This document shows, in pieces, positions 12,855 through 60,254 of a stretch of 64,000 bases of DNA. The DNA comes from Desulfovibrionales bacterium. GTDB taxonomy: Bacteria > Desulfobacterota > QYQD01. The notes beneath the pieces were generated by a model. That model was not told the DNA's origin. It searched no databases and saw only the letters and a list, made by a program, of their open reading frames with translations. The stretch covers positions 186,001 through 250,000 of the forward strand of contig JAQURM010000002.1 of assembly GCA_028715605.1 (NCBI GenBank), in the 5' to 3' direction. Both the position numbers and the translations under genes were made by a program. The number at the start of each line of letters is the position of its first letter. The stretch's first letter is position 1.

Positions 12855-15800
12855 ATTACTCCATTCACGCCTGTGGGGAACACTCACTCGTTATCAATAA
12901 TATCGGGGTTTTTAGCGGTTCATCCCCACGCCTGTGGGGAACACTGGGCTGCCTGCCTTTCGGTCAGGTCTTACGTCGGTTCATCCCCACGCCTGTGGGG
13001 AACACATCTCCATTGTCAACCGTTCCTGGGACCAGCCCGGTTCATCCCCACGCCTGTGGGGAACACTGTTGTAAATCAATTTTGGCATTATCCATTCACG
13101 GTTCATCCCCACGCCTGTGGGGAACACGCCCTTAAATCTATTGCAGGTAGATCCCCTGCCGGTTCATCCCCACGCCTGTGGGGAACACTAGGCACGAGGT
13201 TGTCTGATATAAGATACCGGCGGTTCATCCCCACGCCTGTGGGGAACACGGCGCTGTGGTGTTTGACCAAGGGATTCTATACGGTTCATCCCCACGCCTG
13301 TGGGGAACACATGATGGACGTGATAATCACGTGATAAAATTACGGTTCATCCCCACGCCTGTGGGGAACACCATTTTGGCTCGTTGTAGTTTTTCTGGTG
13401 TGCCGGTTCATCCCCACGCCTGTGGGGAACACTAGCGTGAGATACATAGTCTCGGTATCTATCCCGGTTCATCCCCACGCCTGTGGGGAACACAAGGCCA
13501 GGGAGGTTATAGCTCAATACATCACCGGTTCATCCCCACGCCTGTGGGGAACACTGCGTGCTGACTGCGACGAAATACTAGACGAACGGTTCATCCCCAC
13601 GCCTGTGGGGAACACAAAACCAGCCAGCTGCGGCAGTCCAATTGTGACGGTTCATCCCCACGCCTGTGGGGAACACCATGAGCATGAGCTCATCGCGGGA
13701 AAACATACCGGTTCATCCCCACGCCTGTGGGGAACACATCACGCCCACAGCCGATATGTCGTTGGCCGCCGGTTCATCCCCACGCCTGTGGGGAACACAC
13801 CTCAAAGTTTACATTTTCTAATCTTGCCAGCGGTTCATCCCCACGCCTGTGGGGAACACGTATCTCATAATCGGCGTCGGTGGATTCAATGAGGTTCATC
13901 CCCACGCCTGTGGGGAACACGGCAGTATCGAGGTCTTCCAAGATAATCATACCGGTTCATCCCCACGCCTGTGGGGAACACACAAATTTCATGGAATGAC
14001 TGAGTAAAAGCATCGGTTCATCCCCACGCCTGTGGGGAACACATTTTCACCTTCCGCCTTCCACGCCTCAATCTCGGTTCATCCCCACGCCTGTGGGGAA
14101 CACAAATTTTGGTTTGGAAGATGTTTTTTCTGCCGCGGTTCATCCCCACGCCTGTGGGGAACACCGAACATTCAGAACTGCCGATGATGAATACTACGGT
14201 TCATCCCCACGCCTGTGGGGAACACGTTATAGCCGGCGCGCTTTGTTTTAAGAAAGACGGTTCATCCCCACGCCTGTGGGGAACACTTCAAAATATTAAT
14301 CATTCAAGGAAAGCCGACCGGTTCATCCCCACGCCTGTGGGGAACACTGCTGGATTTTATAATTTTTATGTTACAACTACGGTTCATCCCCACGCCTGTG
14401 GGGAACACTGGAGGAGGCCGGGGTAAAAAAGGTAATAAAACGGTTCATCCCCACGCCTGTGGGGAACACTCCCTTGGTTGGAGCATTTCATCTCTGATAT
14501 GCGGTTCATCCCCACGCCTGTGGGGAACACTTGGACGAGAATCTGGAGGTCACTCCTTACGTCGGTTCATCCCCACGCCTGTGGGGAACACTCCACGGAA
14601 TCGGCGGCCAGGAATTTAAGCACCGGTTCATCCCCACGCCTGTGGGGAACACCTTTCGGTTCCGGCTTTCGGCAGCGGTTCCGGCGGTTCATCCCCACGC
14701 CTGTGGGGAACACCAGGATGTCCAGAGGGCCGCCGTCATAGATGGCGGTTCATCCCCACGCCTGTGGGGAACACGCGGGACAACGTGGCATAGCAGTAAT
14801 ATCCGCCGGTTCATCCCCACGCCTGTGGGGAACACCAGCCCGTCATCAAATTCCGAATCTACATCCCCGGTTCATCCCCACGCCTGTGGGGAACACCAGG
14901 CGGTCTGGTTCTGGCCGGGGCCTCCATGCGGTTCATCCCCACGCCTGTGGGGAACACATTTCTAAAGGAAAAATAAGAGGAGAAAAAATCGGTTCATCCC
15001 CACGCCTGTGGGGAACACCAGGATGTCCAGAGGGCCGCCGTCATAGATGGCGGTTCATCCCCACGCCTGTGGGGAACACGTGATCTCCGGGGGAAATAAT
15101 GTGGAAATCAACGGTTCATCCCCACGCCTGTGGGGAACACACAATAATACCTGTGGGAGCACAGGTCGGCATCGGTTCATCCCCACGCCTGTGGGGAACA
15201 CTTGCATGTGATGTATTCGGTCATTATACCACCCGGTTCATCCCCACGCCTGTGGGGAACACTTTCTGGCGGGGAGCCTACGCTTTACTCTGGACGGTTC
15301 ATCCCCACGCCTGTGGGGAACACGGCGCAGACGTCCCAAAGATGTCATGCAGGTACGGTTCATCCCCACGCCTGTGGGGAACACAGATTTGATATTTGAG
15401 ATTTGAAACTTGAGAACGGTTCATCCCCACGCCTGTGGGGAACACTCAACAACATCAGACCCACAACAAACACGGGTCGGTTCATCCCCACGCCTGTGGG
15501 GAACACATCCAAACCCACACTGTCTTACAGGAAATACACGGTTCATCCCCACGCCTGTGGGGAACACAGGTCCAAATTCTCCATCCAAACCCACACTGTC
15601 GGTTCATCCCCACGCCTGTGGGGAACACTTCTACTCCCGCGGAAGACATTCTTTTATATTCGGTTCATCCCCACGCCTGTGGGGAACACTTGAATCTGAT
15701 CGGTTCGCACTCCATTTAGACCGGTTCATCCCCACGCCTGTGGGGAACACTCGAGTCGAAGGGATCCGATGCCCTCATTGACCGGTTCATCCCCACGCCT

Positions 15801-16787
15801 GTGGGGAACACTTATGAGGGTACATAAAGGAATGCAGAAAAGGCGGTTCATCCCCACGCCTGTGGGGAACACGTCTTGGCCGCAAACATGATCTGCTCGA
15901 CCAGCGGTTCATCCCCACGCCTGTGGGGAACACGTCCACCCGAATGTACGGACCAGGTTGGCCATCGGTTCATCCCCACGCCTGTGGGGAACACGTAGTG
16001 ATCTCGTGCGTAAGGAGGATGGTAGTCGGTTCATCCCCACGCCTGTGGGGAACACACGTAATTTAAACGTTCAAACGGGTTGAACGGCGGTTCATCCCCA
16101 CGCCTGTGGGGAACACGACGGTGTTTCTCTTAACGCCGCTCAAGCTGCCGGTTCATCCCCACGCCTGTGGGGAACACGTCTCAGATTTATGCTGACTGAA
16201 AGAAAGCCCCGGTTCATCCCCACGCCTGTGGGGAACACAAGTGTTATGCCCTAACTGCTTTGGTTTCATACGGTTCATCCCCACGCCTGTGGGGAACACT
16301 TTTAGTCCGAGAGAGGCCGTGGACTCGGTCACGGTTCATCCCCACGCCTGTGGGGAACACCTCGTCGATGTTGGTAAACGCTATGTATCCGTCGGTTCAT
16401 CCCCACGCCTGTGGGGAACACTTGCTGGCTCGCTAAGGCCGTTGTTAAGAGACCGGTTCATCCCCACGCCTGTGGGGAACACTCCATTTCCTGCGTGGGC
16501 ATGTTCCACTTTACCGGTTCATCCCCACGCCTGTGGGGAACACCCGGTGTCCAGGGTTGTAATGCCGTCCTCTAACGGTTCATCCCCACGCCTGTGGGGA
16601 ACACCAATCAACACCAAGGGCATGTCGTCTTTTGAACGGTTCATCCCCACGCCTGTGGGGAACACTGGTCTCGGTCACTACCAGCGTGCCGTATGAGCGG
16701 TTCATCCCCACGCCTGTGGGGAACACCTCGGAGGCCCTCATGAAGCCCTCCCTCCCTGCGGTTCATCCCCACGCCTGTGGGGAACAC
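12855..16787 (-). CRISPR. Type I-E CRISPR array, 64 intact repeats plus a degenerate terminal repeat, 64 spacers
   Basis: 29-bp repeats (plus strand: CGGTTCATCCCC, ACGCCTGT, GGGGAACAC) alternate with 32-bp spacers. From 12916 to 16759 the repeat starts are 63 x 61 bp apart. The minus strand reads GTGTTCCCC...GGGGATGAACCG, matching the E. coli-type I-E repeat, so transcription runs leftward from a leader beside cas2. The left-end repeat (12855-12883) keeps only its last 18 plus-strand bases, as expected of a trailer end. The repeat at 13892 has its first base changed. The spacers at 14714 and 15019 are identical; those at 15507 and 15568 overlap in sequence by 17 nt. Predicted proteins across the array (VHPHACGEH and similar) are artefacts. 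Confidence 0.99.
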
Positions 16788-28215: not shown

Positions 28216-28316
28216 ACCGTTTGAACCGTTCAAACAGTTCAAACAGGTTAGACCGTTCAAGCAGTTCGAGCCGTTTAAGCCGTTCGAGCCGTTTAAGCCG
28301 TTCAAACCGTTTTGTT
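28216..28316. repeat. Nonad tandem repeat array, downstream of the four-helix-bundle gene
   Basis: About eleven degenerate 9-bp units, in gene orientation C-N-G-Y-T-Y-R-A-A (for example CGGCTTAAA, CGGCTCGAA, CTGTTTGAA). The last codons and stop of the four-helix-bundle gene (KTV then TGA) lie in the first unit. A matching array of about eleven units lies on the other side of the gene. Confidence 0.9.
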
Positions 28317-28766
28317 TTTATCGGACTTAAATTCCTTCATAATTTCTTCCATCTCTTCTTTCATACTCTTTGGTCGCGGCATCTTGTATTTCGCGCCCTT
28401 GTATGGGCTTCCTTTCAGATATTCCATGAACTTATTGATCATGATGGAAAGTCTTTTAAAGGCGTCGATTAGCGACTCACATTGTTCCTTACTCACATAC
28501 CCCTGATCCATTGCCACATATAATTGAGAACGTACCTCACCGCACGATCCCTTAGCTATTGACAGGAACTGAATTAATTCCTGATTGCCGCCCCGCTCAT
28601 ATCCTTCTGCGATATTGGACATGACGGAGACTGCCGCTCTTCTTATCTGATCTCTCAGTCCATAATCTTTTGAGAAGGCGCCGTCGGTAGTTATTCCATA
28701 AATTTTGTTGGTTAATTCCCTGGCTGATTTCCAGATTTCGAGGTCTTCAAAGTACCTGGCAGGCAT
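28302..28766 (-). CDS. Four-helix-bundle protein (23S rRNA intervening-sequence protein family), copy 1
   Basis: About 154 residues. [20 protein letters not shown], then [20 protein letters not shown] and [20 protein letters not shown], are hallmarks of this family (TIGR02436-like), a pentamer-forming helical bundle related in fold to the Avd protein of diversity-generating retroelements. Molecular role unknown. A Lys/Glu-rich tail (about 125-154) extends beyond the usual length. The ATG at 28766 has GAGAGG upstream; an ATG five codons earlier is possible. Bracketed by two 9-bp repeat arrays. Confidence 0.9.
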
Positions 28767-28785
28767 GGTTATCCTCTCCATGAGT

Positions 28786-28888
28786 GTTTAAACCGTTCAA
28801 GCTGTTTAAGCAGTTTAAGCTGTTTGAGCAGTTCGAGCCGGTTAAGCAGTTTAAACTGTTAAAGCCGTTTGAACCGTTTAAACAGTTA
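28786..28888. repeat. Nonad tandem repeat array, upstream of the four-helix-bundle gene
   Basis: About eleven 9-bp units in gene orientation (CTGTTTAAA, CGGTTCAAA, CAGTTTAAA, CTGCTTAAC, CAGCTTGAA and similar), same unit type and number as the array on the other side. Translated it gives a spurious Asn/Leu-rich peptide. Confidence 0.9.
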
Positions 28889-28943
28889 AATATTTGTGGA
28901 TTGTAGGGCAGGGGGTGTTCAAATGTCAATTAAATTGCAGTCC

Positions 28944-29069
28944 CCTGAACACCAGCAAGACATCATCTGCGGCGTTGCCTTCGATCGCTCCTCCTTGCGG
29001 CGTATTGCTCCATACGCCTCAGTTGTCGCTCCTCGGCGCCTTGCATCTAATATCTTGCTGGTGATCAGG
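28944..29069. mobile_element. MITE-like element with 17-bp terminal inverted repeats, copy A
   Basis: Ends CCTGAACACCAGCAAGA and TCTTGCTGGTGATCAGG are inverted repeats matching at 16 of 17 positions. The core (CTGCGGCGTT, TGCGGCGTAT, ATACGCCTCA, GGCGCCTTGCA) resembles the core of the element at 42841-42994, though the termini differ. No coding capacity. It occupies most of the gap between the repeat array and the acyltransferase gene. Confidence 0.65.
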
Positions 29070-29171
29070 AATACTCCATAATCTGCTGATTTTAATCTTG
29101 ATAGCCAAATTAGACGGTGGATTTGGGAGTTCCTGAAGGCAGCGGGGGATTGGGCGGGCTATCGGGATGGC

Positions 29172-30098: not shown

Positions 30099-32762
30099 CT
30101 AACTTGTTACAATAATTCTACTTATATTCCGGCGCTTATACCACTTCTCTATCTCCACTGCCCAGAAGACCACGGATGACAGAAGAAGACAGGCCATAAG
30201 TTCTGAAAAACTCAGGGCTTGCGTCTTGAATATACCATGAAGCGGCGGGATGTAAATGGTCGCCATCTGGAGCCCAAAGGTGAGCAGAAAGGCTCCGAGC
30301 AGGGGACGGTTGGTAAATATCCCCTGCTTAAAGATCGACTCGGTTTCCGACCTGATAGCCAGGACGTGCCCCATCTGCGAAAGACAGAGGACGGTAAAGA
30401 CCATGGTCTGCCAGTGGGCGTGACCGGTCCGGATAGACCAGGCCTGGGTAAAGATAGACGCAAACCCCATGAGGAGCCCTACCCAGATTATATGGACGCC
30501 AAGACCATGGGCAAAGATGCTTTCCTGAGGGTGTCGCGGCGGCCTGTTCATCACGCCTTTTTCTGCCGGTTCGGCGGCCAGGGCCAGGCCGGGAAGCCCA
30601 TCCGTGACCAGGTTGATCCAAAGTATATGAATCGGCAAAAGAGGTATAGGGAGTCCCAGAAAGGGCGCAAGGAATATGGTCCATATCTCTCCGGAGTTGC
30701 TGGTCATGGTATATTTTATAAACTTGCGGATGTTGTCAAAGATCCGCCGGCCTTCCTTGACGGCCTTTACAATGGTGGCAAAGTTGTCGTCGAGAAGTAT
30801 CATATGGGCGGCCTCTTTTGAGACGTCGGTCCCGGTAACGCCCATGGCGATGCCGATATCGGCCCTTTTTAAGGCGGGGGCATCGTTAACGCCGTCCCCG
30901 GTCATGGCCGCGAATTGGCCTTTATCCTGTAGGGCCTTGACTATCTTCAGTTTCTGCTCAGGGGCCACCCTTGCATAGACGCGGATATGCTCAACCCTTT
31001 TTTCAAAGTCCTCCAGGGATAATCTATCCAGTTCTCTCCCTGTGATTACGGCCTTTGAACCATCCTCAATAATGCCGAGCCTCCGGGCTATGGCCTTTGC
31101 CGTAAGGGGGTGATCCCCGGTTATCATTACCGGCCTTATCCCGGCTGTCTTGCATAATGTTACCGCCTCCCGGGCCTCTTCCCGGGGCGGATCCATCATG
31201 CCTATAAGGCCCAAGACAGTAAGCCCGGTCTCGACACTCTCAGGAGACATATCCTCAGGCAGGCTATCCCACTCTCTCATAGCCATGCCAAGGACCCTCA
31301 GTCCGTCAGCGGCCATCTTTTCATTTATCTTGATAATCTCTTCTCTGTTCATTGATCTTGGCCCTTCCGATGTCAAAACATCCTTTGACCTATCCAGCAG
31401 GACATCTATAGCGCCCTTTGTGAAGGATATGTATCCGTTCTTTTCTCCAGACTCCAGACTTCTGACTCCTGACTTCTTGTGGAATGTAGTCATGCACTTT
31501 CTATCAGAGTCAAAAGGAATCTCGGCAACCCGCGGGAAATCCCTTTCCAATTCCCCTTTATCAAAGCCGTTGTCCTTTGCGATGTTATACAGCGCGATCT
31601 CGGTGGGGTCTCCGATTATATTTCCTCCGGAATCCGGCCGGGAGTCATTGCTTAAGGCGAGCGCCCGGAAGAGGGTGATGAGTGATGAGTGATGAGTAAT
31701 GGGTTGTAACCCGTCGCTCGTTACTACCTTTCCATCTACATAGACTTCTTCCACGGTCATCTTGTTGAGGGTGAGTGTGCCCGTCTTGTCGGAGCAGATG
31801 TAAGTAACAGAACCGAGGGTTTCCACGGCCGGTAGTTTTCTTATGAGGGCGTTTTGCCCGACCATCTTATTCGCGCCGAGGGCGAGGGATATGGTTATTA
31901 CCGCCGGGAGCGCCTCCGGGATGGCTGCAACGGCCAGGGAGATAGCGGTAAGGAGCATCAAAAAGACCTGTTCTCCCCTCATAATGCCCACGGTAAAAAC
32001 AATAGCGCATATAGCCAGGACAGCAAGGGCCAGCCTCCGGCCAAAGGTCGCCAGTCTCTTTTGCAGGGGCGTCTTGACCTCTTCCTCCTCCTGTAGCATG
32101 GTGGCAATCTTGCCAAGCTCTGTATCCATGCCTGTGGCTATGATAACACCCGCGCCGCGCCCATAGGTTACAAATGTGCCTTTGTAGGCCATGTTCTTAC
32201 GGTCGCCGACGGGTAAAAGCTCATCACGGAGCGCCTTTGTGTGTTTTTCAACGGGCACGGATTCACCGGTGAGGGCCGCCTCTTCCACCTTCAACTGGGC
32301 GGCCTCAATAAGTCTCAGATCTGCCGGCACGACCTTCCCGGCCTCAAGGAGCGCCAGATCGCCGGGGACGAGCCGGGATGCAGGGATATTTTCAGGGGTT
32401 CCGTTTCTCATGACCGTGGCCGTCGGGGCCGCCATTTTTTTAAGGGCGGCCATGGCCTTTTCCGCACGGTATTCCTGGACGAATCCAATAATGGCGTTCA
32501 GGATGACGATTACCGCTATGGCGATGGTATCCGAAGGCTCGCCGATGATTCCCGATATAACCGCGGCAGCCATGAGGACAAGGATCATGAAGTCCTTGAA
32601 CTGGTCGAGGAACATCATGAAGGGGGTCTTTCTCTTTTTTTCCTTTAATTCATTAGGCCCGTATTCCCGCAGCCGTCTCTCCGCTTCCTCCGAAGAGAGG
32701 CCCTTAAGTGAGGAACCCAGCTCTTCAATAACCTCGTCTATCTTCTTCTGATGCCAGCGCAT
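30099..32762 (-). CDS. Cation-transporting P-type ATPase (type II), riboswitch-controlled
   Basis: 887 residues, full length. Actuator motif TGESVPV, phosphorylation site CSDKTGTLTLNKM, nucleotide-binding KGAIDVLLDR, hinge MTGDGVNDAPALKRADIGIA, membrane helix 4 IPEALPAVITISLALG, and a C-terminal cation-ATPase domain. The N-terminal domain and PEALP motif put it with Ca2+/Mn2+-type (SERCA/PMR1-like) pumps. A yybP-ykoY riboswitch in its leader points to Mn2+ export. Two short stretches look like in-frame repeat insertions: GVRSLESGEKN (DNA 31444-31476) and PITHHSSLIT (31673-31704), both in the nucleotide-binding domain. AGGAG precedes the ATG. Confidence 0.94.
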   Translation of the reverse strand: MRWHQKKIDEVIEELGSSLKGLSSEEAERRLREYGPNELKEKKRKTPFMMFLDQFKDFMILVLMAAAVISGIIGEPSDTIAIAVIVILNAIIGFVQEYRAEKAMAALKKMAAPTATVMRNGTPENIPASRLVPGDLALLEAGKVVPADLRLIEAAQLKVEEAALTGESVPVEKHTKALRDELLPVGDRKNMAYKGTFVTYGRGAGVIIATGMDTELGKIATMLQEEEEVKTPLQKRLATFGRRLALAVLAICAIVFTVGIMRGEQVFLMLLTAISLAVAAIPEALPAVITISLALGANKMVGQNALIRKLPAVETLGSVTYICSDKTGTLTLNKMTVEEVYVDGKVVTSDGLQPITHHSSLITLFRALALSNDSRPDSGGNIIGDPTEIALYNIAKDNGFDKGELERDFPRVAEIPFDSDRKCMTTFHKKSGVRSLESGEKNGYISFTKGAIDVLLDRSKDVLTSEGPRSMNREEIIKINEKMAADGLRVLGMAMREWDSLPEDMSPESVETGLTVLGLIGMMDPPREEAREAVTLCKTAGIRPVMITGDHPLTAKAIARRLGIIEDGSKAVITGRELDRLSLEDFEKRVEHIRVYARVAPEQKLKIVKALQDKGQFAAMTGDGVNDAPALKRADIGIAMGVTGTDVSKEAAHMILLDDNFATIVKAVKEGRRIFDNIRKFIKYTMTSNSGEIWTIFLAPFLGLPIPLLPIHILWINLVTDGLPGLALAAEPAEKGVMNRPPRHPQESIFAHGLGVHIIWVGLLMGFASIFTQAWSIRTGHAHWQTMVFTVLCLSQMGHVLAIRSETESIFKQGIFTNRPLLGAFLLTFGLQMATIYIPPLHGIFKTQALSFSELMACLLLSSVVFWAVEIEKWYKRRNISRIIVTS

Positions 32763-52970: not shown

Positions 52971-53186
52971 CCGTAAGGCTTTTAGCCGCAGACGCATTTC
53001 AAGACTGTCTTGCCACAGAGGACACAGAGGGCACAGAGAAAATTCAATGACTTCCAAAAAATCAAAAGAAAAAGGCAAGGCAGTTAAGAAAAACCGTCCA
53101 GACTGCTACCCGTGGGAAAACGGATTCTGGCTTGAATTACTGATCTCTGTGCCCCTGTGGCAAGATTCTGATTTTGGGAATAAGAC

Positions 53187-53625
53187 ATGGCAGATAAACT
53201 AACGGAACAGATCATAGCGGCGGCAATAGGTAACCGTTCACCGTTGACTGTTCACCGTTGTCCGTAAGAATTCGAAAAGCATCTTTTTGGCAAAGGGGCA
53301 CGGTGATCGCGTATTCCATCGGTCTCCGGTCCTGGTGCCAAGAGACTAGGGACCAGAGATCAGGAGCCAAGTATTCTCTGAAAAGCACAAGGAACGTCTT
53401 TTCGGTGAACGGTCAACAATGAACGGTGAACGGTTACAGGGACAACGGATTGATTTACTGGTGAATAATGAAGTTGTGGTCGAAATTAAGTCGGTTCGCA
53501 GGCTGGAGGATATCTTTACGGCTCAGGTATTGTCGTATCTAAAAAGCATGGGCTTAAAACGGGGCCTGCTTATCAACTTTGGCGAAAGCAAACTGGTCAG
53601 CGGTGTGAAAAGGCTGTCTCTATGA
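53187..53625 (+). pseudogene. GxxExxY protein gene broken by short repeats
   Basis: An N-terminal piece (MADKLTEQIIAAAIG, 53187-53231) and a C-terminal piece (RIDLLVNNEVVVEIKSVRRL to LLINFGESKLVSGVKRLSL, to 53625) match the two ends of the intact gene at 26678. The middle, which should hold GPGLLESAY, is replaced by about 200 bp of repeats: CCGTTCA heptads (53228-53265), another 7-bp block GACTAGGGACCAGAGATCAG (near 53345) and TGAACGG heptads (53402-53450). Non-functional as a full protein; the C-terminal piece still has an ATG in the repeat. Confidence 0.8.
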
Positions 53626-55010
53626 ACTCTGTGACCTCTGTGCCCTCTGTGGCAAAGAGTATTGGTGAACGGTCAACGGATAACGGTGAGCGTCCCCTTA
53701 TTCCCTACGGCCGGCAGTCGGTTGATGACGACGACATAGCCGCAGTGGTTGAGACCCTGCGATCAGATTGGCTAACCCAGGGCCCCAGGGTGCGGGAATT
53801 TGAGGAGGCTTTTGCCGTCTATGTCGGTTCCAGATACGCTGTAGCGGTGAACAGTGGGACGGCTGCGCTGCATCTGGCATGTTTAGCCGCCGGCCTTGGT
53901 CCAGGAGATGAGGTTATAACCAGCCCGATTACTTTTGTGGCCACGGCCAACTGTGCGCTTTATGTGGGCGCCCGGCCCGCTTTCGTGGATATTGACCCTG
54001 CAACCTTCAATCTGGATCCCGGGCGGTTGGAAGCATATCTAAAAAGTCGTCCACCGTTTACAGTTCACCGTTCACAATCAAAAGGTCGGGCAACGGTCAA
54101 CGGGCAACGGTCAACGTCCAGGCCTCGTGCAGTCATCCCTGTCCACTTTGCCGGCCTTCCCTGCGACATGTCTGAAATCCACCGGGTCGCAAAAAAGTTT
54201 GATTTAGTCATTATTGAGGACGCCTGCCATGCTCTGGGGGCCAAGTACAGAGTAGGGCGGGAAGAAGACAGCCGATGGATCAGTATCGGGAGTTGTTCTC
54301 ATTCCGATATGACTGTGTTCAGCTTTCATCCTGTTAAGCATATCACTACGGGTGAAGGTGGTATGGTGACTACCAACGACGCAGCTCTGTATGGGCGTCT
54401 GGTCCTCCTCAGAAACCATGGTATTACGCGTAACCCTGAAGAGTTCACGGTTCACAGTTCACAGTTGACCGTGAAAGGCAATTCAATTGTTTCCGTCGGT
54501 GAACGGACAACGGTGAACGGACAACGGGCCATGCCCCCATGGTATTACGAGATGCAGAACCTCGGCTATAACTACCGGATCACCGATATCCAGTGTGCCC
54601 TCGGGAGATCTCAACTGAACAAAATAGGGTCTTTCGTGGAACGAAGGCGTTCCATCGCCGGGCAGTATTCACGAATAATAGGAGGGCTCCCCAAATTACG
54701 TCATCAGACGGAGCCGGACGGGTGCCAATCCTCCTACCACCTTTATGCCATACTTATACACGATGAGGCCAGGATGTCGAGAGACGAGGTCATGGCAGAG
54801 CTTAAGAGGATGGGAGTGGGCGCACAGGTCCATTATATACCGGTTTACAGGCACCCTTTTTACCAGAAATTGGGCTTTAAGGCTAATAGCTGGCCCAATG
54901 CCGAGCACTTTTTCCGGCATTGCCTGTCCATTCCCATGTTCCCCGGAATGTCCGAGAAGGAGATAGAGCAAGTGTCGAATGTCTTGGAAGAAGTAGGAAG
55001 CAGACTTTAG
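53622..55010 (+). CDS. pseC: UDP-4-amino-4,6-dideoxy-N-acetyl-beta-L-altrosamine transaminase (PseC)
   Basis: 462 residues against about 380 for the family. DegT/DnrJ/EryC1 fold: RYAVAVNSGTAALHLACLAA, EVITSPITFVATANCALYVG, VIIEDACHALGAKY and the PLP lysine in FSFHPVKHITTGEGGMV. The excess length is explained by repeats: the first ~25 residues are encoded by CTCTGTG and GGTCAACGG repeats, and two in-frame insertions, about 25 residues (DNA 54048-54122, FTVHRSQSKGRATVNGQRST) and about 30 residues (54443-54532, FTVHSSQLTVKG to TTVNGQRAM), are made of inverted CCGTTNA/TNAACGG heptads. It transaminates the PseB product. It overlaps the upstream pseudogene by 4 nt. Confidence 0.9.
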   Translation: MNSVTSVPSVAKSIGERSTDNGERPLIPYGRQSVDDDDIAAVVETLRSDWLTQGPRVREFEEAFAVYVGSRYAVAVNSGTAALHLACLAAGLGPGDEVITSPITFVATANCALYVGARPAFVDIDPATFNLDPGRLEAYLKSRPPFTVHRSQSKGRATVNGQRSTSRPRAVIPVHFAGLPCDMSEIHRVAKKFDLVIIEDACHALGAKYRVGREEDSRWISIGSCSHSDMTVFSFHPVKHITTGEGGMVTTNDAALYGRLVLLRNHGITRNPEEFTVHSSQLTVKGNSIVSVGERTTVNGQRAMPPWYYEMQNLGYNYRITDIQCALGRSQLNKIGSFVERRRSIAGQYSRIIGGLPKLRHQTEPDGCQSSYHLYAILIHDEARMSRDEVMAELKRMGVGAQVHYIPVYRHPFYQKLGFKANSWPNAEHFFRHCLSIPMFPGMSEKEIEQVSNVLEEVGSRL

Positions 55011-58255: not shown

Positions 58256-58262
58256 AAATGCA

Positions 58263-58297
58263 GCCATCAGCTGTCAGTCATCAGCTATCAGCAGGAG
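58263..58297. repeat. CAGCTRT heptad repeat upstream of the second four-helix-bundle gene
   Basis: Five 7-bp units: CAGCCAT, CAGCTGT, CAGTCAT, CAGCTAT, CAGCAGG. The last unit supplies AGGAGG, the ribosome site of the gene. Complementary units (GGCTGAA, AGCTGAC, AGCTGAT) lie at 58640-58674 beyond the stop, so the gene is bracketed by inverted heptad arrays. Confidence 0.8.
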
Positions 58298-58303
58298 GTT
58301 GGG

Positions 58304-58663
58304 TTGGGAGATTTTAAGAAATTGAAAGTATGGCAAAAGAGCCATGCGGTGACACTTGCTGTTTACAAAGCATCCAGGAAATTTCCTAAAGAAGAGATTT
58401 ACGGGCTTACCAGCCAAATAAGGCGAGCCAGTGTTTCGGTACCTGCCAACATCGCTGAAGGTTGCGGCAGGAATGGAGACACGGAATATGCACGGTTCCT
58501 ACAGATAGCCATGGGGTCAGCAAGCGAGCTGGAGTATCACCTGCTTCTTTCTCAGGATCTCGGTTTTCTGGTGCCCTCAGATTATGACCAGATCGTTCGC
58601 GATCTCAGCGAAGTGAAACAAATGCTAACATCCTTCATTAAAAGGCTGAAAGCTGACGGCTGA
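58304..58663 (+). CDS. Four-helix-bundle protein (23S rRNA intervening-sequence protein family), copy 2
   Basis: 119 residues, the usual family length. FKKLKVWQKSHAVTLAVYKA, LTSQIRRASVSVPANIAEGC and YARFLQIAMGSASELEYHLL are the family signature. TTG start at 58304 six nt after AGGAGG. KADG and the stop lie in a heptad repeat. It interrupts the pse operon between the PseF-like fusion and pseG without any sugar-related function. It shares only the family pattern with copy 1 at 28302 and is flanked by a different repeat type. Confidence 0.92.
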   Translation: MGDFKKLKVWQKSHAVTLAVYKASRKFPKEEIYGLTSQIRRASVSVPANIAEGCGRNGDTEYARFLQIAMGSASELEYHLLLSQDLGFLVPSDYDQIVRDLSEVKQMLTSFIKRLKADG

Positions 58664-58703
58664 AAGCTGATAGCTATTTGTGTGTGGGTCTGTGGCTAAA
58701 GAA

Positions 58704-60254
58704 ATGAACTCTGTGTGCTCTGTGCCCTCTGTGGCGAAGAATCTTGTTATCCGGGCGGATGCCGGGACCGAAATCGGCGCCGGGCATGTGATGCGCTGCC
58801 TCGCATTGGCCCAGGGATGGCAGGATGCCGGGGGGCATCCCATTTTTGCGATGGCCACGGAGGCGCCCAATCTGGAGGTCCGCTTGAAATCAGAAGGTGT
58901 CGAGGTTGTTCATCTGGCGGTCAAGCCGGGAAGCGCCGAGGATGCCACAGCTACGGCAAGTCTGGCGCAAGAGGCAGGGGCGACATGGATAACCGCGGAC
59001 GGCTACCGGTTTGACACGCGGTACCAGCGAATGGTCAAGGGCCGCGGCGCAAGGCTCCTGATAATGGATGACTATGGCCATGCTAGTCATTACTACGCAG
59101 ATATCGTGTTGAATCAGAATATATATGCCTCTGAGGAGATATACAGGAATAGAGAGCCTTATACGAAGCTTTTATTGGGTACTTGCTATGCTCTTCTCCG
59201 ACGTGAATTTATGAAATGGCATAACTGGAAACGAGAGATCCCTGATATGGCTCGGAAAATTCTGGCAACCCTGGGCGGAAGCGATCCGGATAATATTTCC
59301 CTGAAGGTGATCGATTCCATAAAGATGCTTAGTCATTCAGATCTGGAAGTAAAGATCATAGCAGGTCCTTCCAATATGCATGTTAGCAGCCTGAAGCAGA
59401 CTATTTATGAAAGGTCGGTGAACGGTCAACGGTCAACGGTTAATATATCTCTTCTCTCTGCTCCGCACAATATGCCCGAGCTAATGGCCTGGGCGGATTT
59501 GGCCATTTCAGCCGCGGGAACTACCTGCTGGGAACTGGCATTCATGCGGTTGCCTGCTCTGCTGCTGGTCGTGGCCGACAATCAAAACTGCGTAGCCGAT
59601 CGGCTGGAAGCGGCCGGAGCAGCGATTAATCTGGGCAGGCAGAGCGCGGTCCCGCCGCACGAGATATCCCGGGCGCTTCTTCGGTTGCTCAGGGATCGGG
59701 GAGAGCGGGAGGCGATGGCCCGGTCCGGCCGGAATTTGGTCGATGGTGAAGGCGCCGCAAGAGTAGTGAAATGTTTGCAGGGTGGGGAAATGGAACTGCG
59801 TCCGGCATCTGTCGATGATTGCCGGCTTTTGTGGAAGTGGGCGAATGATCCGGAGACGCGTGAGGTCTCTTTTTCGCCGGAATCTATCAAGTGGGAGGAT
59901 CACGTTAAGTGGCTGGAGTCAAAACTGGGCGACCCTGGCTGCGTTTTTTGGGTGGCAAGCAACGGAGAGGGGACTTCTATCGGACAGGTGCGGTTTGACG
60001 TGGACGGCGGCGAAGCGATAATCTCGGTCAGCGTGGACAAAGCGTTTCGAAACAGGGGGTACGGTAACAGAATCATTCGATTGGCCTGCGGAAAAGTATT
60101 TGAAACTGCGCGGATTGGCTCCATTCATGCATACGTGAAGGAGGGTAATTACGGATCCGCGAAGGCCTTTTTCAATGCCGGATTCAAAAGGTCCGGGATT
60201 TGCGTGGTCAAGGGGCAGAAAGCCTTCCATTTCGTCATGGAGAGACCTCAGTGA
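58704..60254 (+). CDS. PseG-PseH fusion: UDP-sugar hydrolase and N-acetyltransferase of pseudaminic acid synthesis
   Basis: About 516 residues. Residues 15-350: PseG, a GT-B-like hydrolase (VIRADAGTEIGAGHVMRCLA with the catalytic His, ILATLGGSDPDN, ADLAISAAGTTCWEL) that releases UDP. From about 360: GNAT acetyltransferase (ELRPASVDDCRLLWKWANDP, RNRGYGNRIIRLACG), the PseH role. In most bacteria these are separate genes. SVNGQRSTVN (DNA 59412-59442) is an in-frame heptad insertion in PseG. The first residues MNSVCSVPSVAK are encoded by a CTCTGTG repeat, which thus supplies the start codon; a GTG at 58680 is an alternative. Confidence 0.9.
   Translation: MNSVCSVPSVAKNLVIRADAGTEIGAGHVMRCLALAQGWQDAGGHPIFAMATEAPNLEVRLKSEGVEVVHLAVKPGSAEDATATASLAQEAGATWITADGYRFDTRYQRMVKGRGARLLIMDDYGHASHYYADIVLNQNIYASEEIYRNREPYTKLLLGTCYALLRREFMKWHNWKREIPDMARKILATLGGSDPDNISLKVIDSIKMLSHSDLEVKIIAGPSNMHVSSLKQTIYERSVNGQRSTVNISLLSAPHNMPELMAWADLAISAAGTTCWELAFMRLPALLLVVADNQNCVADRLEAAGAAINLGRQSAVPPHEISRALLRLLRDRGEREAMARSGRNLVDGEGAARVVKCLQGGEMELRPASVDDCRLLWKWANDPETREVSFSPESIKWEDHVKWLESKLGDPGCVFWVASNGEGTSIGQVRFDVDGGEAIISVSVDKAFRNRGYGNRIIRLACGKVFETARIGSIHAYVKEGNYGSAKAFFNAGFKRSGICVVKGQKAFHFVMERPQ

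Follow-up and report, generated by a model that had tools for sequence, protein, structure and literature searches.

The 64,000-nucleotide stretch of contig JAQURM010000002.1 from a Desulfovibrionales bacterium (assembly GCA_028715605.1, positions 186,001 to 250,000 of the forward strand; hereafter the window) contains two genes of the 23S rRNA intervening-sequence protein (IVP) family, each lying between two arrays of short tandem repeats. We propose that gene and arrays together probably constitute a transposase-less mobile cassette, made of an arm, the IVP gene and an inverted arm, with repeat ends that are specific to each locus. The association between IVP genes and arrays is confirmed to be wider than first noted, as it extends over many bacterial phyla with a repeat period of 7 and, less often, 8 or 9. 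Genomes, contigs and loci are cited by our own numbers (G, C and L) where they need to be told apart.

Both window genes are members of PF05635/TIGR02436, the IVP/four-helix-bundle family. Copy 1 (28302-28781, minus strand, 159 aa) matches the PF05635 profile with 126.7 bits and TIGR02436 with 119.4 bits, and copy 2 (58304-58663, plus strand, 119 aa) with 136.4 and 136.6 bits, respectively (cutoffs 33.8 and 24). They are located between protein-coding genes, and not inside a 23S rRNA gene. A preliminary description of this DNA had copy 1 bracketed by two arrays of about eleven 9-bp units with its stop codon inside one of them, and this is what Tandem Repeats Finder returns: about 10.7 units of GTTYRARCN on the 3' side (28216-28311), overlapping the stop codon at 28302-28304, and about 11.3 units of the same consensus, again degenerate, on the 5' side (28786-28887). 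At this same site, the 5' array differs in length and in its Y/R positions among G000, G001 and G004. The two arrays score as direct (direct 44.0, inverted 17.5), and the two orientations are poorly separable here because the unit is nearly its own reverse complement; copy 1 is enclosed by inverted repeats solely by virtue of this near-palindromic unit, and copy 2 clearly so. The left arm of copy 2, of CAGCYRT type (58261-58292, plus strand; Tandem Repeats Finder and sequence), continues into AGCAGGAGG and reaches the ribosome site upstream of the TTG start. Its right arm (about 58644-58675, minus strand) is the reverse complement of the left and contains the stop codon (inverted score 18.5, direct 11.0), so the earlier claim that inverted heptads provide both the ribosome site and the stop of this gene also stands. 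PADLOC gave no match for either copy, and a search of a phage collection with one IVP query gave none.

The preliminary description had proposed comparing the flanks of further family members with those of control genes, and an enrichment of flanking repeats was indeed found. The phylum set comprised 34 IVP loci, namely all five matches in the window's genome and the best match from each of 29 relatives; loci for comparison, from the same genomes, encoded GxxExxY (PF13366), HEPN (PF05168) and ribosomal L9 (PF01281) proteins. Arrays on both sides (score of at least 11) were detected at 18 of the 34 IVP loci, 6 of 33 GxxExxY loci and none of the 30 HEPN or 30 L9 loci. A second, named set held the best-scoring 80 of at least 591 IVP loci, from Bacteroidota, Cyanobacteria, Planctomycetota, Chloroflexota, Acidobacteria, Firmicutes, several Proteobacteria, candidate phyla and two Methanophagales archaea. 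Flanks shorter than 60 nt led to the omission of 2 of 35 GxxExxY and 2 of 80 named loci, and IVP loci with in-frame stops or frame breaks were excluded from protein alignments only. Of the 226 IVP flanks, the array threshold was passed by 110 at period 7, by 24 at period 8 and by 8 at period 9, whereas every other period from 4 to 13 gave 0 to 3 passes. For GxxExxY, 9 of 68 flanks passed at period 8 and 7 at period 9, and the 120 HEPN and L9 flanks gave one pass each at periods 7, 8 and 9. Chance is excluded because IVP flanks, unlike the control flanks, concentrate at these three periods. The 3' array overlaps the IVP stop codon in 19 of 46 measured loci and lies within 30 nt of it in 42 of them. 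Period-7 arrays have a median of 5.0 copies; of 111 such arrays, 63 have a copy number that rounds to 4 or 5.

In most cases the two arms of an IVP gene are inverted and match each other, and their unit changes from one locus to the next. We scored inversion by local alignment of the 5' flank against the reverse complement of the 3' flank, with a threshold of 13. This was reached by 31 of 34 IVP loci in the phylum set, 26 of 33 GxxExxY, 1 of 30 HEPN and 0 of 30 L9 loci, and by far fewer pairs of flanks swapped between loci (36 of 1122 for IVP, 61 of 1056 for GxxExxY). Likewise, 57 of 78 named IVP loci reached it, against 115 of 6006 swapped pairs; of the two archaeal loci, L187 lies above the threshold (14.5) and L181 below it (6.5). 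GxxExxY genes, which are nuclease-like, thus share the matched-arm behaviour. Repeat units are similar (0.74) where the IVP proteins are at least 60% identical and fall to about the shuffled level (0.51) below that; units are therefore inherited with the protein for some time before they drift. When period-7 units were aligned across loci, a common YAGK core emerged (2.40 bits against at most 2.12 in shuffles, 5' arms), and period-8 units have a CRAGG core in common.

Comparison of related genomes shows that most empty sites lack both arms and gene, and that occupied sites have both. Cassettes occupy intergenic slots between co-oriented genes, often with an array that directly follows the stop codon of the upstream gene and continues into a ribosome site. 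From a longer list of cassette-less records, we fetched ten relatives covering four slots. In the window's genus, site 1 holds an IVP cassette in G001, and both gene and array are missing from G004, where the two neighbouring genes almost adjoin and the flanks are 93-95% identical. The other three slots are on named cyanobacterial plasmids. At an integrase slot (N2), a cassette with GGGTGTA/TACACCC arms lies on both Calothrix brevissima NIES-22 plasmids, which have the surrounding DNA in common, and only a 3-nt gap is present in Tolypothrix sp. PCC 7601, Aulosira laxa and Nostoc carneum. The TraM slot (N1) carries the cassette on two plasmids; four records were fetched without it, of which L375 and L377 have no array. 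The cas6-cas4 slot (N3) holds different IVP cassettes on two plasmids, one of them direct-armed. The preliminary description had considered that repeats might be present at the same site when the gene is absent. This was the case in one of the ten relatives (L373), and six have neither gene nor arrays (G004, L378, L379, L380, L375 and L377); the other three hold a different repeat element or insert at the slot. Taken with the enrichment of arrays and with arms that match within but not between loci, these several jointly empty sites uphold the proposal that repeats and gene travel as one cassette.

Slots can also change occupant between sister species. The slot of window copy 2 holds a GxxExxY cassette in G001, and the right nonad arm of that cassette is left behind in the window at 58704-58735. 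Between the same two neighbouring genes, G000 has an IVP gene with GACTTCT-type arms, whereas G001 and G003 have another IVP gene with CAGC-type arms. A divergent IVP gene in G001 is replaced in G004 by a DUF433/DUF5615 gene pair (L261:795-1392, minus strand) with similar ATTCGAA heptads; we take this pair to be possibly a toxin-antitoxin module.

In cyanobacterial plasmids, some IVP cassettes lie inside CRISPR-cas operons (L369:1785-2466, L382:673-1450 and L372:2456-2885). Their positions are cas6-cas4 of type I-D twice, with different cassettes, and cas10-cmr3 of type III-B.

Arrays of the same kind also occur alone. In the genomes that we sampled, an abundance of IVP genes goes with a roughly tenfold higher density of such lone arrays. 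We sampled 120-200 kb from each of 12 relatives, away from IVP loci; the stretches were drawn from long contigs rather than at random, and one of them includes a GxxExxY gene. Period-7 arrays per 100 kb numbered 12.0, 7.0, 9.5 and 7.5 in genomes that have 5 to 7 IVP matches, 2.9 and 0 in two with one, and 0-0.5 in six genomes with none, with 0 to 1.5 at control lags of 10, 11 and 13. The correlation with IVP count across the 12 genomes (Spearman rho 0.79, p 0.002) is uncorrected for phylogeny; counts of Y1_Tnp (rho 0.24, p 0.45), GxxExxY (0.33, p 0.29) and RVT_1 (0.39) showed no significant one. In the 60 HEPN and L9 loci, which are DNA separate from these stretches, density was 18.3 per 100 kb where the genome has at least three IVP genes, against 1.5 where it has none and 0 where it has one or two. 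Arm 14-mers from six of nine IVP loci turn up again in the sample of their own genome, well above their level in other genomes (for copy 2, 1.55 against 0 to 0.07). Lone arrays show only a weak version of the YAGK core. Inverted array pairs enclosing 220-1500 bp were found only twice in 100 sampled stretches; one of them surrounds a DUF559 (PF04480) gene (L273:12095-12616, inverted heptad arms), which suggests a third gene family with this architecture.

The strongest rival to a mobile cassette, though in our view an unlikely one, is that the arrays arise by themselves through replication slippage in intergenic DNA and that IVP genes merely land in or between them. An over-representation of heptad repeats in bacterial genomes has been on record since 2007 and was ascribed to polymerase slippage (excerpts of PMC4692102). 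Several of our observations would fit this rival: lone arrays are common in IVP-rich genomes, similar arrays surround other cargo (GxxExxY, DUF559 and the DUF433/DUF5615 pair), some arms are direct, and L373 and L381 carry arrays and no gene. Landing within one tandem array, however, predicts direct arms, whereas inverted ones dominate (57 against 11 of 78 named loci); moreover, arrays are missing from the slot in six of the ten cassette-less relatives, and genomes with no IVP gene have almost no arrays. The heptameric repeats of Xanthomonas, Nostoc and Beggiatoaceae resemble ours in being abundant low-copy arrays, some in inverted pairs, but the excerpts of PMC4692102 and PMC4679880 tie no gene family to them, whereas here IVP and GxxExxY genes are involved. 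One such heptad, GGGAATC, is abundant in the species that carries XCC0516, the IVP gene of the solved structure 2gsc (excerpts of PMC4692102).

Slightly less probable still is that the arms form an RNA hairpin as in the 23S rRNA intervening sequence (IVS), the transcript folding and being cut by RNase III, with the hairpin controlling IVP expression. According to excerpts of PMC4990558, the RNase III-cut 23S IVS has the same protein family (PF05635; S23p/IVP frames) and the same plan of a reading frame within inverted repeats, and has long been suspected of mobility; the arms of the IVP cassettes also sit at the start and stop of the gene. Nevertheless, some arms are direct, and over 96 loci arm mismatches of the G.U type (143) show no excess over those of the A.C type (166). 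The arms therefore bear no signature of RNA pairing, which would be expected if a hairpin were under selection, and we set such selection aside. The cassettes further differ from the 23S IVS in lying outside rRNA genes, in having arms that are 7-9 bp tandem arrays with a locus-specific unit, and in having units that recur genome-wide as lone arrays. We rate the element as a new kind, although some may prefer to call it a new variant of the IVS.

We consider it improbable that movement of the cassettes is driven in trans, for instance by an unlinked Y1 transposase or by the GxxExxY nuclease. That GxxExxY genes carry the same matched arms (26 of 33), and that one such cassette contains a DUF559 gene, would fit this explanation, but array density does not track the number of either candidate in the 12 genomes. 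Indeed, G018 and G028, with 11 and 4 Y1_Tnp matches, have 0 period-7 arrays, and G041 has 9.5 per 100 kb and no GxxExxY gene. One of the closest known parallels is that of the RAYT transposases and their repetitive extragenic palindromic (REP) sequences and REPINs, where each gene adjoins its own class of repeats, dispersed in the same genome (excerpts of PMC3116915). Arms are dispersed in this way at the six IVP loci mentioned above, copy 2 included. Unlike RAYTs, however, IVP cassettes have no Y1 (HUH) transposase, and their repeats are tandem heptads rather than palindromic REPs; lone copies are not inverted doublets either (5 of 95), and we therefore rejected REPIN-like doublets.

Least probable of all, and rejected here, is the retroelement suggested by the preliminary description, in which IVP would act like the accessory protein Avd of diversity-generating retroelements with a reverse transcriptase in trans and the arrays would result from templated copying: the four-helix-bundle fold is shared with Avd, but copy 2 scores only 26.1 bits against the NF033474 cutoff of 80 and copy 1 has no match, and a reverse transcriptase is not needed because IVP-rich genomes, including the single-contig G024 (7 IVP) and G041 (5 IVP) as well as G001, G010, G013 and G015, have no RVT_1 match. 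The window's genome has one RVT_1 match, on contig C1, and both of its IVP copies are on C2.

A number of points weigh against the mobile cassette itself. At the TraM slot, L373 retains arms with the same unit around a missing gene, and three of the ten cassette-less relatives hold other repeats or inserts, namely another inverted element at N1 (L376) and, at N3, a lone heptad array of another unit and a different insert. Insertion often substitutes intergenic bases, and comparison of occupied with empty sites by eye revealed no target-site duplication. The inverted arrangement is not universal, as 11 of 78 named loci reach a direct score of 13, 9 of which also reach the inverted threshold, and the arms of the L369 cassette are in direct orientation. 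Recurrence of the arm unit in its own genome was not seen for copy 1 (L002), L030 or L013. Lone arrays are mostly single, since an inverted partner lies within 350 bp of just 5 among 95 from five genomes, and their correlation with IVP number carries no correction for phylogeny. In two xanthomonads, heptad sites are mostly in the same gene context and generally not with mobile elements (excerpts of PMC4692102). Finally, the window IVP genes have no recognised nuclease or transposase domain, PF05635 being their sole Pfam match.

How such a cassette might move is suggested by the predicted structure of the protein. Two crystal structures of IVP exist, and to our knowledge no function has been assigned to it. 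In the AlphaFold2 model, copy 2 folds into four helices (predicted local distance difference test score, pLDDT, 96.6). Its nearest solved structures are 2gsc (XCC0516; template modelling (TM) score 0.88-0.93 depending on the query) and 2rld, with five chains each, followed by Bordetella phage Avd, alone (4dwl) or in complex with reverse transcriptase (8ub7 and others; 0.74-0.80 depending on the query). The structure 2gsc is reported as a pentameric ring (excerpts of PMC4990558). A ring that takes one repeat per subunit would fit both the roughly five copies and the common core of the arrays; we infer this and no more, because the peak at 4-5 copies depends in part on the threshold, and selection on the ribosome site could account for the YAGK core. 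Such a ring might read about five repeats in a TRAP-like manner.

On this basis, we envisage that IVP assembles as a pentameric ring like its relative 2gsc, and that each subunit would touch one repeat unit through the conserved AG core, an arm of about five units loading one ring. The ring-loaded arms may then keep the two ends paired during copying of the cassette into a new slot by host replication or recombination; we invoke the host because no recognised transposase is encoded in the cassette and a reverse transcriptase is not required. Lone arrays would be one-ended products or scars, and the match between arms may be maintained by DNA-level copying of one arm from the other.

The window contains further repeat-bearing elements. 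A GxxExxY remnant (53422-53613) lies between inverted nonad arms CACAGAGGA and CTCTGTGNC (53014-53651, plus strand), and a gene-less element with inverted heptad arms GTAACCGTTCACC and GGTGAACGGTTAC (53229-53438) interrupts this GxxExxY gene, which is intact in G001; arm pieces related to the element occur many times per genome. Two heptad inserts (54050-54116 and 54442-54527) are in frame within an intact DegT-family aminotransferase gene (PF01041; open reading frame 53622-55010). Heptad repeats at 31450-31477 are likewise in frame within an intact P-type ATPase gene (open reading frame 30099-32762), where the solved relative 6zhf has a 10-residue gap. A repeat of about 185 bp (28943-29128), which is not a heptad array, has many copies (91-97% identical) in each of the five genomes of the genus, and two shorter repeats of about 103 and 115 bp (L158:1319-1421 and L159:6861-6975) have dozens of copies across it. 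Finally, a large CRISPR-like array of period 61 (repeat CGGTTCATCCCCACGCCTGTGGGGAACAC) occupies 13038-16727.

Beyond a mobile cassette, a bolder reading can be entertained, to which, taken as a whole, we give somewhat less than an even chance. IVP proteins would be the agents behind the excess of 7-bp tandem repeats in bacterial genomes, for which an explanation has long been sought. Their pentameric ring, with one AG-core unit per subunit, would make or spread locus-specific arrays and move its own gene between mirrored arms with neither transposase nor reverse transcriptase, and the nuclease-like GxxExxY and DUF559 genes would represent parallel cassettes within one new class of element. Searches in a library of open-access papers gave no description of a link between IVP and repeats, and for the 23S IVS mobility has been suspected without proof (excerpts of PMC4990558). 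If true, the tie between IVP and heptads would explain both the heptad excess and the IVP/IVS, and would establish a mobile unit of very small size that has no recognised enzyme.
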